In this document: piece after piece, positions 60,882 to 64,000 of the stretch
How positions within the stretch are numbered: position 1 is the first letter of the stretch
Layout: each line of letters opens with the position of its first letter
NCBI RefSeq assembly: GCF_028437565.1
Contig: NZ_JAMRYR010000004.1
Location: 310,001-374,000, forward strand
Source: Actinomyces sp. B33
Lineage (GTDB): Bacteria; Actinomycetota; Actinomycetes; Actinomycetales; Actinomycetaceae
Direction: 5' to 3'
Length of the DNA stretch: 64,000 bases
Position numbers and translations under genes: made by a program
The notes under the pieces: generated by a model
The model's input: only the letters and a program-made list of their open reading frames with translations
Database searches by the model: none
What the model was told of the DNA's origin: nothing

Positions 60882-60920
60882 TGTTGGCACAAGCGTACTG
60901 CTAGTACGTTTGTGCCAACA
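60882..60920. promoter_or_regulatory. Large palindromic operator upstream of arcA
   Basis: 17-bp arms (60882-60898 and 60904-60920) with one mismatch around a 5-nt spacer, ending 47 nt before the arcA ATG, in an AT-rich island. The size and symmetry point to a dimeric or tetrameric DNA-binding protein. ArgR, an Arc-type Crp/Fnr regulator or another repressor are candidates; none is encoded nearby. As RNA it could also fold into a long hairpin. Confidence 0.65.
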
Positions 60921-60967
60921 CGACGACGTGTGATCCCTCTAACGAAATGACACAGGAGGACAGGGCG

Positions 60968-62191
60968 ATGAAACCCCGAGTCTCATCCGAGGTCGGCTCC
61001 CTCAAACAAGTGATGCTCCACCGGCCCGGCAAGGAAATGCTCCGGCTGACGCCGTCCAACAAGGACGACCTCCTCTTCGACGACGTCCTCTGGCTCGAGA
61101 AGGCCCAGGAGGAGCACGACGCCTTCGCCCAGTCGCTCACCGAGCGCGGCGTCGACGTCCTCTACTTCCAGGAGCTGCTCGGGCAGGCCCTCGACAACCC
61201 CGCCGCCCGCCTTGAGGCCCTCAACGCCGTCTTCACCGAGGAGACCTGCGGAACCGGCGCCGTCGACGTCATCGCCACCTACGCCGAGCAGCTCGACGCC
61301 CCCGACCTCGCCGAGCTCCTCATCGCCGGCATCACGAAGAAAGAGCTCTTCGACCGGATCGCCTACACGCGCTCGGTCTCCCTCGAGGCCATCGACAACG
61401 ACGACTTCGTCCTCGCCCCCCTGCCCAACCACCTCTTCACGCGCGACACCTCGTGCTGGATCTACGACGGCGTCTCCATCAACTCGATGCGCAAGGAGGC
61501 CCGGCGCCGCGAGACCATCAACGCCCAGATCGTCTACCGCTACCACCCGCGCTTCACCGCGGACGGCCCCCTCATCCACTCCAACGGCGTCGAGGCCGGA
61601 CCGGCGACCGTCGAGGGCGGCGACGTCCTCGTCATCGGCAACGGCGCGGTCCTCATCGGCATGAGCGAGCGGACGTGCCCCCAGGGCGTCGAGCGCCTCG
61701 CCGCCCGCCTCTTCTCCGCGGGCGAGGTCACCAGCGTCATCGCCCTCGAAATGCCCAAGTCGCGCGCCCAGATGCACCTCGACACCGTGATGACGATGGC
61801 CGACCGCGACACCTTCGTCAAATACCCCGGCCTGGGGATGCTCCGCTCCCAGACGATCCGCCCCGGCGACACCCCCAAGGAGCTCGACGTCACCGTCAAC
61901 GCCCCCGAGGCCATGCACGACGTCATCGCCGACGCCCTCGGCCTCGACTCCCTACGGATCCTCGAACCCCCCTTCGACTCCCTGACCTCCGAGCGCGAGC
62001 AGTGGAACGACGGATCGAACGTCCTGGCCATCGCGCCCGGCGTCGTCTCCACCTACGAGCGCAACACGGCGACCAATGAATTCCTCGAGGGCAACGGCAT
62101 CGAGGTCGTCGCCATCCCCGGCAACGAACTGGGCCGGGGCCGCGGAGGCCCCCGCTGCATGAGCTGCCCCATCGTCCGCGAAGACGCGTGA
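60968..62191 (+). CDS. arcA: Arginine deiminase
   Basis: 407 residues, standard length. [55 protein letters not shown] and the C-terminal [16 protein letters not shown] (catalytic Cys397) identify the enzyme. It hydrolyses arginine to citrulline and ammonia, the first step of the ATP-yielding and acid-neutralising arginine deiminase pathway. AGGAGG lies 7 nt before the ATG at 60968, which is preferred over an in-frame ATG at 60947. arcB and arcC follow. Confidence 0.97.
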
Positions 62192-62225
62192 CGCAACCAC
62201 CCCCACCGAGAAAGGAACGCCCACC

Positions 62226-63227
62226 ATGGCACACGCACTCCAAGGCCGTCATTTCCTCAAGGAGATTGATTTCACTCCGAAGGAGTGGAAGTCGCTTCTT
62301 GATTTGTCCGCGTATTTGAAGGCGGCGAAGCGTGAGGGGAGGGAGGCGCAGTATTTGCGGGGTCGGAATATTGCGTTGTTGTTTGAGAAGACGTCGACTC
62401 GTACGCGGTGTTCGTTTGAGGTGGCGGCGTATGACCAGGGTGCTCGGGTGACGTATTTGGATCCGTCGGGGTCGCAGATGGGTCATAAGGAGTCGGTTGC
62501 TGATACGGCTCGTGTGTTGGGTCGGATGTTTGATGGTATTGAGTTCCGTGGTGCCAAGCAGGAGCATGTTGAGGTTTTGGCGCAGTTGTCGGGTGTTCCG
62601 GTGTGGAATGGGTTGACTGATGATTGGCATCCGACTCAGATGCTTGCTGATCAGTTGACGATGATCGAGCACGGTGGTGGTCGTGATTTGTCTGAGTTGT
62701 CGATCGCGTATGTGGGTGATGCGCGTAATAACGTGGGTAATTCGATTCTTGTGTCGTGCGCGATGATGGGCATGGATGTGCGGATGGTGGCGCCTGCGGC
62801 TCTTCAGAATGATGAGGCTGTGGTGGCTAAGGCGCGTGAGTTGGCTCAGGCGTCTGGTGGCAGTGTTCTGATGACGGATTGTGTTGATGAGGGTGTTGCT
62901 GGGGTTGATTTTGTGTACACCGATATTTGGGTGTCGATGGGTGAGCCCAAGGAGGTGTGGGATGAGCGGATTGGGTTGTTGCGTGGGTATCAGGTGAATG
63001 CGGGGTTGATGGCGAAGGCTGGTGCTGGTGCGAAGTTCTTGCATTGTTTGCCGTCGTTCCATGATCGCAAGACGAGTGTGGGTGAGGAGATTTTCCAGCG
63101 GACGGGTTTGGATGGGCTGGAGGTCACCGATGAGGTGTTCGAGTCTGAGGCGTCGATCGTGTTCGATCAGGCCGAGAACCGGATGCACACGATCAAGGCC
63201 GTCATGGTCGCCACACTAGGAGACTGA
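62226..63227 (+). CDS. arcB: Catabolic ornithine carbamoyltransferase
   Basis: 333 residues. The carbamoyl-phosphate motif STRTR (57-61), [11 protein letters not shown], and the ornithine-site HCLPSFHD are intact. In the arc operon it phosphorolyses citrulline to ornithine and carbamoyl phosphate, used by ArcC. The codon use is strikingly unlike every neighbour: from about 62260 to 63120 it prefers TTG, GGT, GAT, TAT, TTT and GTG/GTT, while the first few and last ~35 codons return to the C-ending codons of the rest of the window. This suggests replacement of the gene body by DNA from a lower-GC relative. Confidence 0.95.
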
Positions 63228-63228
63228 G

Positions 63229-64000
63229 ATGCGGATCGTCGTCGCACTGGGGGGCAACGCCCTCCTGCGCCGGGGGGATGTCCCCGACGCCACCACCCAG
63301 ATCGCCCACGTCCAGCACGCCGCCCAGGAGCTCGCCAAGCTCGCCGAGCAGCACGAGCTCATCGTCACCCACGGCAACGGCCCGCAGGTCGGCGTCCTCG
63401 CCCTCGAGAGCGCCCAGGACGAGCGCCTCAGCGAGTGCTACCCCTTCGACACCCTCGGCGCCGAGACCCAGGGCATGATCGGCTACTGGCTCCTCCAGGC
63501 CCTCCAGAACGCCCTCCCCGGACGCCACGTCGCCTCGCTCGTCAACCAGACCCTCGTCCTGGCCGGAGACCCCGCCTTCGCCAACCCGACGAAGTTCATC
63601 GGGGAGGTCTACACGAAGGAGCAGGCCGAGGCCCTCGCCGCCGAGAAGGGATGGGTCGTCAAGCCGGACGGCGAGCACTACCGCCGCGTCATCGGCTCCC
63701 CCAAGCCCCAGCGGATCATCGAGACGCGGATGCTCCACGTCCTCGTCAACGCCGGCGCCGTCGTCGTGTGCGCCGGCGGCGGCGGGATCCCCGTGATCCG
63801 CAACGAGAAGGGCAAGCTCCAGGGCGTCGAGGCCGTCATCGACAAGGACCGCACCGCCTCGGTCCTCGCCGAATCCCTCGACGCCGACGCCCTCCTGATC
63901 CTCACGGACGTCGACGGCGTCCAGGAGGGCTACGGGACCCCCCAGGCCCGCACGATCCGACGGGCGACCCCCGCCCAACTGCGCGGCATGGGACTGCCCG
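63229..64000 (+). CDS. arcC: Carbamate kinase, partial (runs off right edge)
   Basis: About 257 of an expected ~310 residues are present. RIVVALGGNALLRRGD, LIVTHGNGPQVGVLALE, GAVVVCAGGGGIPVIR and ILTDVDGVQEGYGTPQ are typical of carbamate kinase. It makes ATP from carbamoyl phosphate, the energy-yielding step of the arginine deiminase pathway. AGGAG overlapping the arcB end serves as ribosome site, one base after the arcB stop codon. Codon use is again of the high-GC, C-ending type, unlike arcB. Confidence 0.95.
   Translation, partial: MRIVVALGGNALLRRGDVPDATTQIAHVQHAAQELAKLAEQHELIVTHGNGPQVGVLALESAQDERLSECYPFDTLGAETQGMIGYWLLQALQNALPGRHVASLVNQTLVLAGDPAFANPTKFIGEVYTKEQAEALAAEKGWVVKPDGEHYRRVIGSPKPQRIIETRMLHVLVNAGAVVVCAGGGGIPVIRNEKGKLQGVEAVIDKDRTASVLAESLDADALLILTDVDGVQEGYGTPQARTIRRATPAQLRGMGLP

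Follow-up and report, generated by a model that had tools for sequence, protein, structure and literature searches.

The arcB gene of Actinomyces sp. B33 (genome label G000) and a second ornithine carbamoyltransferase (OTC) gene of the same genome share a body made identical by recombination, and we consider it fairly likely that this exchange involves strand-polar, keto-biased gene conversion whose bias comes from the mismatch endonuclease NucS/EndoMS. The window, meaning the whole stretch of 64,000 nt analyzed here, ends within the arc operon, which contains the following features (window positions):

60947–62191, forward strand: arcA, arginine deiminase (Pfam ADI), the flanking control, with native codon usage at third positions
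62226–63227, forward strand: arcB, OTC copy 1 (Pfam OTCace and OTCace_N), whose body is G/T-coded by composition
62226–62246, forward strand: first codons of arcB, native-like, with G/T at none of the six third positions of codons 2–7
62247–62318, forward strand: arcB codons 8–31, with 83% G/T at third positions, not common to copy 2
62319–63227, forward strand: arcB tract of 909 bp, equal to copy 2 (contig C6:378877–379785) except for one base at 63123
63156–63227, forward strand: 3′ end of arcB, codons 311–333, with 39% G/T, near native yet within the identical tract
63229–64000, forward strand: arcC, presumably carbamate kinase (Pfam AA_kinase), with native codon usage, continuing past the window end
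61923–63188, reverse strand: open reading frame of 421 aa, antisense across arcB

The product name of arcC is our assumption from the operon context; Pfam gives the amino-acid kinase family. The initial annotation had singled out arcB as oddly coded within its operon, and the third positions confirm this: arcB has A.02, C.11, G.52 and T.34 (86% G/T), compared with A.05, C.69, G.26 and T.005 (26% G/T) in arcA and A.03, C.67, G.29 and T.004 in the part of arcC inside the window. Its description of native-like gene ends with a sharp change also holds, as codons 2–7 have 0/6 and codons 311–333 39% G/T around a body of 83–93% (93% in codons 32–310). The GC content of arcB is 0.552 versus 0.681 in arcA and 0.715 in arcC, in a window of 0.70; since A-ending codons still make up 2%, the shift is a strand asymmetry, from C to T and G, and not simply a lower GC. 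The long antisense frame is most simply a by-product of the G/T coding, which leaves few TTA, CTA and TCA words in the sense strand, and we claim no gene there. In a scan for extreme third positions (177 loci and the window, 1.94 Mb, ORFs of at least 150 aa, sources below 50% GC skipped), the ORFs past the thresholds were the OTC and arcC copies of G000, G187 and G083, all two-copy genomes, together with frames shadowing arcC on the opposite strand; a further ORF, in locus L100, was taken as spurious. The composition of arcB is accordingly no chance result. Upstream of arcA, an AT-rich region holds a near-perfect inverted repeat, TGTTGGCACAAGCGTAC...GTACGTTTGTGCCAACA (60882–60923), possibly an operator or hairpin.

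A search of the arcB DNA against its own genome (2.28 Mb, 11 contigs) located a second OTC gene on the same strand (C6:378784–379785), which starts 5.5 kb past the end of arcB and lies directly before argB. Downstream of codon 31 a single base, the one at 63123, separates the two genes all the way to the stop, and 33 differences precede codon 32. Codons 2–31 of copy 2 show native usage (27% G/T at third positions), and its N-terminus (MTHPL..., ...AELKAAK) resembles those of second-OTC orthologues such as G020b in a comparison of eight sequences by eye. The relatives Schaalia vaccimaxillae (G004) and S. suimastitidis (G030) also have two OTC genes nearby, with starts 6.5 and 7.8 kb apart and a DNA identity of 69%. 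In the protein tree, both G000 copies stand beside arcB of S. vaccimaxillae (G004a) and away from the second-OTC clade. Since the body of copy 2 is that of arcB, its N-terminus is a second-OTC remnant and both copies take the arcB position in the tree, arcB sequence has replaced the body of the second OTC gene by gene conversion. The locus shows the marks of conversion between paralogues: the copies are more alike than either is to its orthologues, the tract edge is abrupt, and a remnant of the original paralogue persists outside the tract. Homologous recombination with an intragenic breakpoint, as initially proposed, is therefore real; it took place with the other OTC gene of this genome and not with a foreign donor, and it is in copy 2, outside the window, that a sharp break falls between codons 31 and 32.

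If the arcB body had come from a foreign donor that uses codons differently and had later been copied to the second gene, the abrupt composition change within one operon would be accounted for, and recombination at the locus is genuine. However, the protein and the tree group arcB with its own relatives. Its identity to S. vaccimaxillae and S. suimastitidis (89% and 86%) is as close as that of arcA (85% and 81%), so that the odd spelling most likely arose in place. No phylogenetic conflict between the arcB body and its flanking genes was found, going by the OTC tree for arcB and by identity comparison alone for arcA, whose nearest match among eight named loci is the same species as that of arcB by tree, S. 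vaccimaxillae. The combination of 2% A-ending and 11% C-ending codons was absent among the relatives' OTC genes examined, and the 2% is unlike the lower-GC relatives, with.11–.21 in arcB of S. vaccimaxillae and S. suimastitidis. Furthermore, a comparable asymmetry appears again on other, separate branches, in many cases graded along the gene (see below). The lower-GC actinobacterial donor of the initial annotation is thus unsupported by protein closeness, by the OTC tree and by the composition of the relatives' OTC genes, and we regard import as extremely improbable. Phage and plasmid origins were also rejected: a DNA search of phages gave only 9 records and 387 plasmid records matched, all at 60–80% identity, and no viral contigs matching arcB peptide patterns were found. 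Four phage-collection records (OR845269.1, OR850958.1, AGRM01000005.1 and AFYI01000007.1) contain sequence ~66% identical to arcB; the two annotated as ornithine carbamoyltransferase are 501-kb pieces named Salmonella and are probably host sequence.

Substitutions were counted against close relatives, with the single-copy sister G186 as the ancestral state for G187. Synonymous changes from A/C to G/T versus the reverse numbered 128:5 in arcB (C>T 59, C>G 43, A>G 23, A>T 3), 94:10 in G187 and 93:21 in G083, where the excess was concentrated in codons 1–111 (54:3) and gone in codons 223–333 (9:12), while the synonymous controls gave 43:23, 16:52 and 31:38. Directional substitution is present in the converting sequence and missing in the controls, and conversion is its probable cause. 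The bias is not of the GC type, as arcB loses C and its GC drops to 0.55 in a 0.70 window. If recombination left single-stranded 3′ tails open to strand-specific damage, mainly deamination of cytosine, the polarity would fit and C>T would be the commonest change, as observed. Deamination of C yields neither C>G nor A>G, however, and this explanation is weakened by C>G being nearly as common as C>T in arcB, by the excess of A>G there and by 29 C>G versus 56 C>T in G083; we judge it quite unlikely. Selection on the codons or mRNA of arcB, acting on translation speed, mRNA structure or through transcription-associated asymmetry, would agree with changes that are mostly synonymous and with the missing non-synonymous bias in G083 (11:11) and G187 (3:7). 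In arcB, by contrast, non-synonymous changes are biased 18:1 (control 18:18), which counters codon selection for that gene only, as the bias is confined to it.

The asymmetry of arcB recurs in related genomes, and it goes with near-identical OTC pairs. We compared OTC pairs in 24 two-copy Actinomycetaceae genomes (G153, G212, G213 and G135, several OTC matches, are among those outside this set). Sixteen pairs are divergent (nucleotide identity at most 0.83), with third positions like those of neighbor genes, and eight are near-identical (at least 0.966); a 25th pair, in G095, is 83% identical, divergent and of ordinary composition. The 66 comparison OTC genes without a near-identical partner, which include the G095 pair and, from G083 and G067, a divergent third copy each, have on average a flat G/T profile per codon bin near.43, which speaks against codon selection. 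In all eight near-identical genomes the most extreme bin deviates by |z| of 3.6–7.0 (larger copy counted), versus at most 3.5 in the 66 others (Mann-Whitney p = 2e-6 with kinship ignored; p = 0.001 for whole-gene G/T), although G067 clears the other genes narrowly (3.6 versus 3.5) and chiefly in its first bin. The homogenised label needs four changes on the OTC tree, and the simplest reading would be four separate origins of the homogenised state, with gains and losses unseparated; G061, whose only copy lies where a contig begins and falls from.92 to.42, belongs to neither profile class and yet is labelled homogenised in this tree.

Six of the eight near-identical genomes show a graded profile, with a G/T-rich 5′ end and an ordinary or A/C-rich 3′ end. 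In G075 the OTC bins run.97.70.48.39.24.24.07, and in G083.83.92.84.55.54.48.28, followed by.02–.11 at the end of the co-converted arcC. G/T falls from ~.9 to the ordinary level of ~.4 in G062 (.97 to.42), G070 and G071, and from.80 to.28 in G067. A true sign flip along the tract is clear in G075 and G083 and slight in G067. A gene with G/T on the left and A/C on the right is its own reverse complement in composition, each strand being rich in G/T over its 5′ half, and recombination from both sides would give such a pattern. The sign flip inside one G083 operon, with OTC G/T-coded and arcC A/C-coded, is a further point against codon selection. The profile of arcB in G000 is of a uniform G/T type, as opposed to a gradient. 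In G187 a 1976-bp tract of OTC and arcC is present in both copies, with ~.8 G/T across OTC and most of arcC next to an ordinary arcA. Whole-gene G+T as the sole statistic misses G075 and G067, in which the gradients cancel, and per-bin deviations were therefore added; total keto islands in 400-bp windows proved less specific than third positions.

Several observations lie at the margins of this comparison. The arcC gene of G075 (L169:1637–2602) is strongly A/C-coded, with third-position G/T of.07–.24; no second close arcC was found in G075, where the only other arcC-like match is 37% identical, so that the asymmetry of this genome reaches beyond the present homogenised tract. The most G/T-shifted OTC genes for which no near-identical partner was found are L120 (G131) and L008 (G001), both at z 3.5; these are draft genomes, and a second copy could have collapsed in assembly or been lost recently. 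A search beyond Actinomycetaceae (396 genomes of the order and 394 of the class, E of 1e-120 or better) gave few two-copy genomes. One of them, G771 of another actinobacterial family, has an OTC pair of 92% identity with no skew; its two arc operons (L178 and L179), 92% identical over arcA-arcB, are possibly a young duplicate suited to timing the bias.

In Actinomycetaceae, the non-coding rRNA spacers carry the same sign of asymmetry as the OTC tracts. In the G000 rRNA operon (contig C9, 5955 bp), G/T amounts to 86% in the 256 bp upstream of 16S and 81% in the 16S–23S spacer, then 46% in the 23S–5S spacer and 34% in the 300 bp past 5S; we class G000 as multi-copy because its operon lies on a short separate contig and its relatives carry three copies. 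Across 16 Actinomycetaceae genomes (20 loci), the leader has 59–86% G/T and the 16S–23S spacer 72–84%, with less than 50% in the 23S–5S spacer at 17 loci and in the post-5S stretch at 16. The first fifth of 16S has a mean of 63% G/T in Actinomycetaceae versus 52% in single-copy genomes of other classes, with mycobacteria at 57–59%, and G/T drops from 63% to 53% along the Actinomycetaceae 23S. In the rest of the phylum, the 16S–23S spacer has 42–57% G/T in ten single-copy genomes (a status that, for five drafts, follows from contigs running through the operon) and 60–70% in eight multi-copy genomes out of nine; G950, the exception, has 48% and one E. coli operon 49%. L226, which has no 23S adjoining its 16S, was dropped. 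In five of those eight multi-copy genomes the right side is not A/C-rich (23S–5S spacer 49–67%) and the leader shows little or no excess (47–56%).

The spacer G/T of seven single-copy mycobacteria is 57–62%, compared with 62–68% in two-copy mycobacteria (10 loci, 9 genomes; p = 4e-4); G619 and G575, of the same genus and outside that test, have 63–64%, and two mycobacteria with differently scoring 16S copies 64–65%. Since single-copy mycobacteria are still asymmetric, part of the rRNA signal may reflect an RNA-processing constraint or inheritance, and their residual asymmetry may come from rRNA processing stems or a two-copy ancestor. The processing stem forces complementarity across 23S. Together with the partial polarity outside Actinomycetaceae, these points led us to reject rRNA as clean proof, and we treat it as supporting and not decisive. 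The rrn leader and spacer are transcribed, which selection related to transcription could invoke, but the asymmetry is shared by non-coding DNA. The unusual codon selection offered as an alternative in the initial annotation is thus opposed by the within-operon sign flip, the rRNA spacers and the non-synonymous bias of arcB, and selection on codons or mRNA is in our estimation very unlikely.

The variable loops of the G000 16S (L191:257–1821) look G/T-rich, and its Rfam score of 1478 bits is below those of most of 30 genomes, with G083, G003, G073, G082 and G085 lower still; 16S trees of Actinomycetaceae may be distorted. Further keto/amino islands of G000 lie at L187:1–467, L184:1–487, L188:738–1678, L190:19176–19999 and L194:9740–10414, some at contig starts; some of these islands could border rRNA operons or encode Pro/Thr-rich linkers.

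Conversion between the OTC copies, the compositional pattern, its recurrence and the directed spectrum of substitutions are direct observations, and we propose the following mechanism for them. Recombination of arcB with the second OTC gene 5.5 kb away has made both bodies identical. Inside such homogenised tracts G or T takes the place of A or C along one strand, beginning at the left, as seen in all eight near-identical OTC pairs; the complementary replacement enters from the right in some tracts, clearly in G075 and G083, slightly in G067 and also in the rRNA flanks of Actinomycetaceae. The probable cause is that the conversion itself is biased and strand-polar. The source of the bias would be NucS/EndoMS, the actinobacterial mismatch endonuclease that acts without MutS. 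Once a 3′ tail from either copy has invaded its partner, a G or T in the tail would form a keto:keto mismatch (G:G, G:T or T:T) on which NucS is active, and an A or C an amino:amino mismatch (A:C, C:C or A:A) on which it is poor. A keto:keto mismatch arises only if the tail has G/T and the other copy A/C, and NucS specificity thus sorts sites into the observed classes, strand by strand. If NucS-active sites were resolved for the invading strand, or the exchange rejected, G/T would become absorbing on each 3′ tail; breaks spread over the tract would then give a G/T-to-A/C gradient, and breaks mainly at one end a uniform G/T profile such as that of arcB.

Nearly all Actinobacteria are reported to have NucS in place of MutS/MutL, and NucS cuts recombination between 90%-identical sequences tenfold (PMC5290159); the mismatches that it prefers are G-T, G-G and T-T, and others, A-C in particular, are acted on weakly or not at all (PMC8228993). 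In M. smegmatis, oligonucleotide editing through a dG-dT mismatch left orders of magnitude fewer survivors than through dA-dC (PMC11551744), and M. smegmatis NucS alone is described as cleaving no mismatched substrate in vitro (PMC5290159). A 2026 paper on archaeal skews states that NucS repair a priori cannot act strand-specifically (PMC12999951); the present pattern suggests that during recombination it can. We found NucS (PF01939) in G000 (C4:311531–311893), in 31 of 38 genomes searched, including all eight with homogenised OTC, and in 7 of 14 control genomes, E. coli not being among the seven. The spacer G/T was 60–83% in multi-copy genomes with NucS (21 genomes), 48–49% in multi-copy genomes without it (G950 and E. 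coli, few and confounded with lineage), 46–57% in single-copy genomes with NucS (four, one with a weak match) and 42–55% in single-copy genomes without it (six); G073, G081, G082 and G085 have rRNA data but fell outside the NucS search and hence outside this table. The link to NucS is probable and rests on this correlation.

The same strand-polar conversion could instead be biased by the recombinase or by end processing, if G/T-rich (Chi-like, TGG-rich) 3′ tails formed better RecA filaments and G/T variants on the tail spread in consequence. RecA favors TGG/GT-rich single strands (PMC3763553), a preference that we assume to apply to the E. coli protein, and the polarity and the keto/amino classes would equal those observed, which makes this preference the main rival to NucS. 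Against it, the E. coli tuf pair and the single E. coli rrn operon examined show no asymmetry, nor does G950, the only known multi-copy genome without NucS among the 38 searched. We consider the RecA explanation unlikely, and conversion biased by NucS remains our preferred reading.

In a toy model of two copies in which keto:keto sites are resolved in favor of the invading strand, evenly placed breaks gave bins of.93.78.58.45.32.18.05, and breaks at one end a flat high profile. A donor-wins rule gave the mirror-image gradient; under pure rejection only two of six settings kept the copies alike, and the gradient was then weak, though its sign was the one observed. The sign of the predicted gradient hangs on the assumed invader-wins rule, and this rule, like the role of NucS as the bias source, is what we infer. 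Counter to the proposal, arcB codons 8–31 are G/T-coded though not common to copy 2 today, arcC of G075 is A/C-coded with no second close copy, and the G771 pair is unskewed at 92% identity.

The pattern resembles several known processes and departs from each. As in the concerted evolution of tuf genes and rRNA operons, copies within one genome are made identical by recombination within a shared body, but E. coli tufA/tufB and one E. coli rrn operon lack a strand-polar composition gradient. GC-biased gene conversion can pass for selection: it is a bias in fixation tied to recombination, and it alters synonymous composition. The bias proposed for the OTC tracts would do likewise, but it is one of keto versus amino, is strand-specific, reverses its sign along some tracts and lowers the GC of arcB. 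Replication and transcription asymmetry produces an excess of G and T on the leading strand, the same bases as in the OTC tracts, whereas the OTC signal is largely confined to the shared tract of 1–2 kb, is far stronger and, in G083, flips its sign within one operon on one strand. NucS/EndoMS repair shares the preference for keto:keto mismatches and restrains homeologous recombination (PMC8228993, PMC5290159); a long-term compositional footprint of NucS was not found in the literature covered. Concerted evolution and GC-biased conversion are already known; for a keto bias that follows strand polarity and changes sign within the tract, no report was found in the literature covered, which takes in few subscription papers.

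If the proposal is true, it would describe a new type of biased gene conversion, keto/amino, strand-specific and reversing along some tracts, and would let recombination polarity and NucS activity be read from genomes as they evolve in nature, making the role of NucS in recombination testable from sequence. More tentatively, every lasting homologous exchange between repeats in NucS-bearing bacteria may be subject to a drive towards keto bases that is strand-polar and dictated by mismatch chemistry, and its sign and slope would log the positions of double-strand breaks in each repeat. The composition of rRNA operons and duplicate genes would then be a fossil map of recombination polarity, and the drive would distort 16S sequences, codon usage and calls of horizontal transfer across Actinobacteria. 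For the Actinomycetaceae, the proposal would help explain the G/T-rich rRNA spacers and the raised G/T content of 16S and 23S. ‘Foreign’ codon usage in duplicated actinobacterial genes could be home-made, and composition-based detection of horizontal gene transfer and 16S-based trees would be open to misleading signal.
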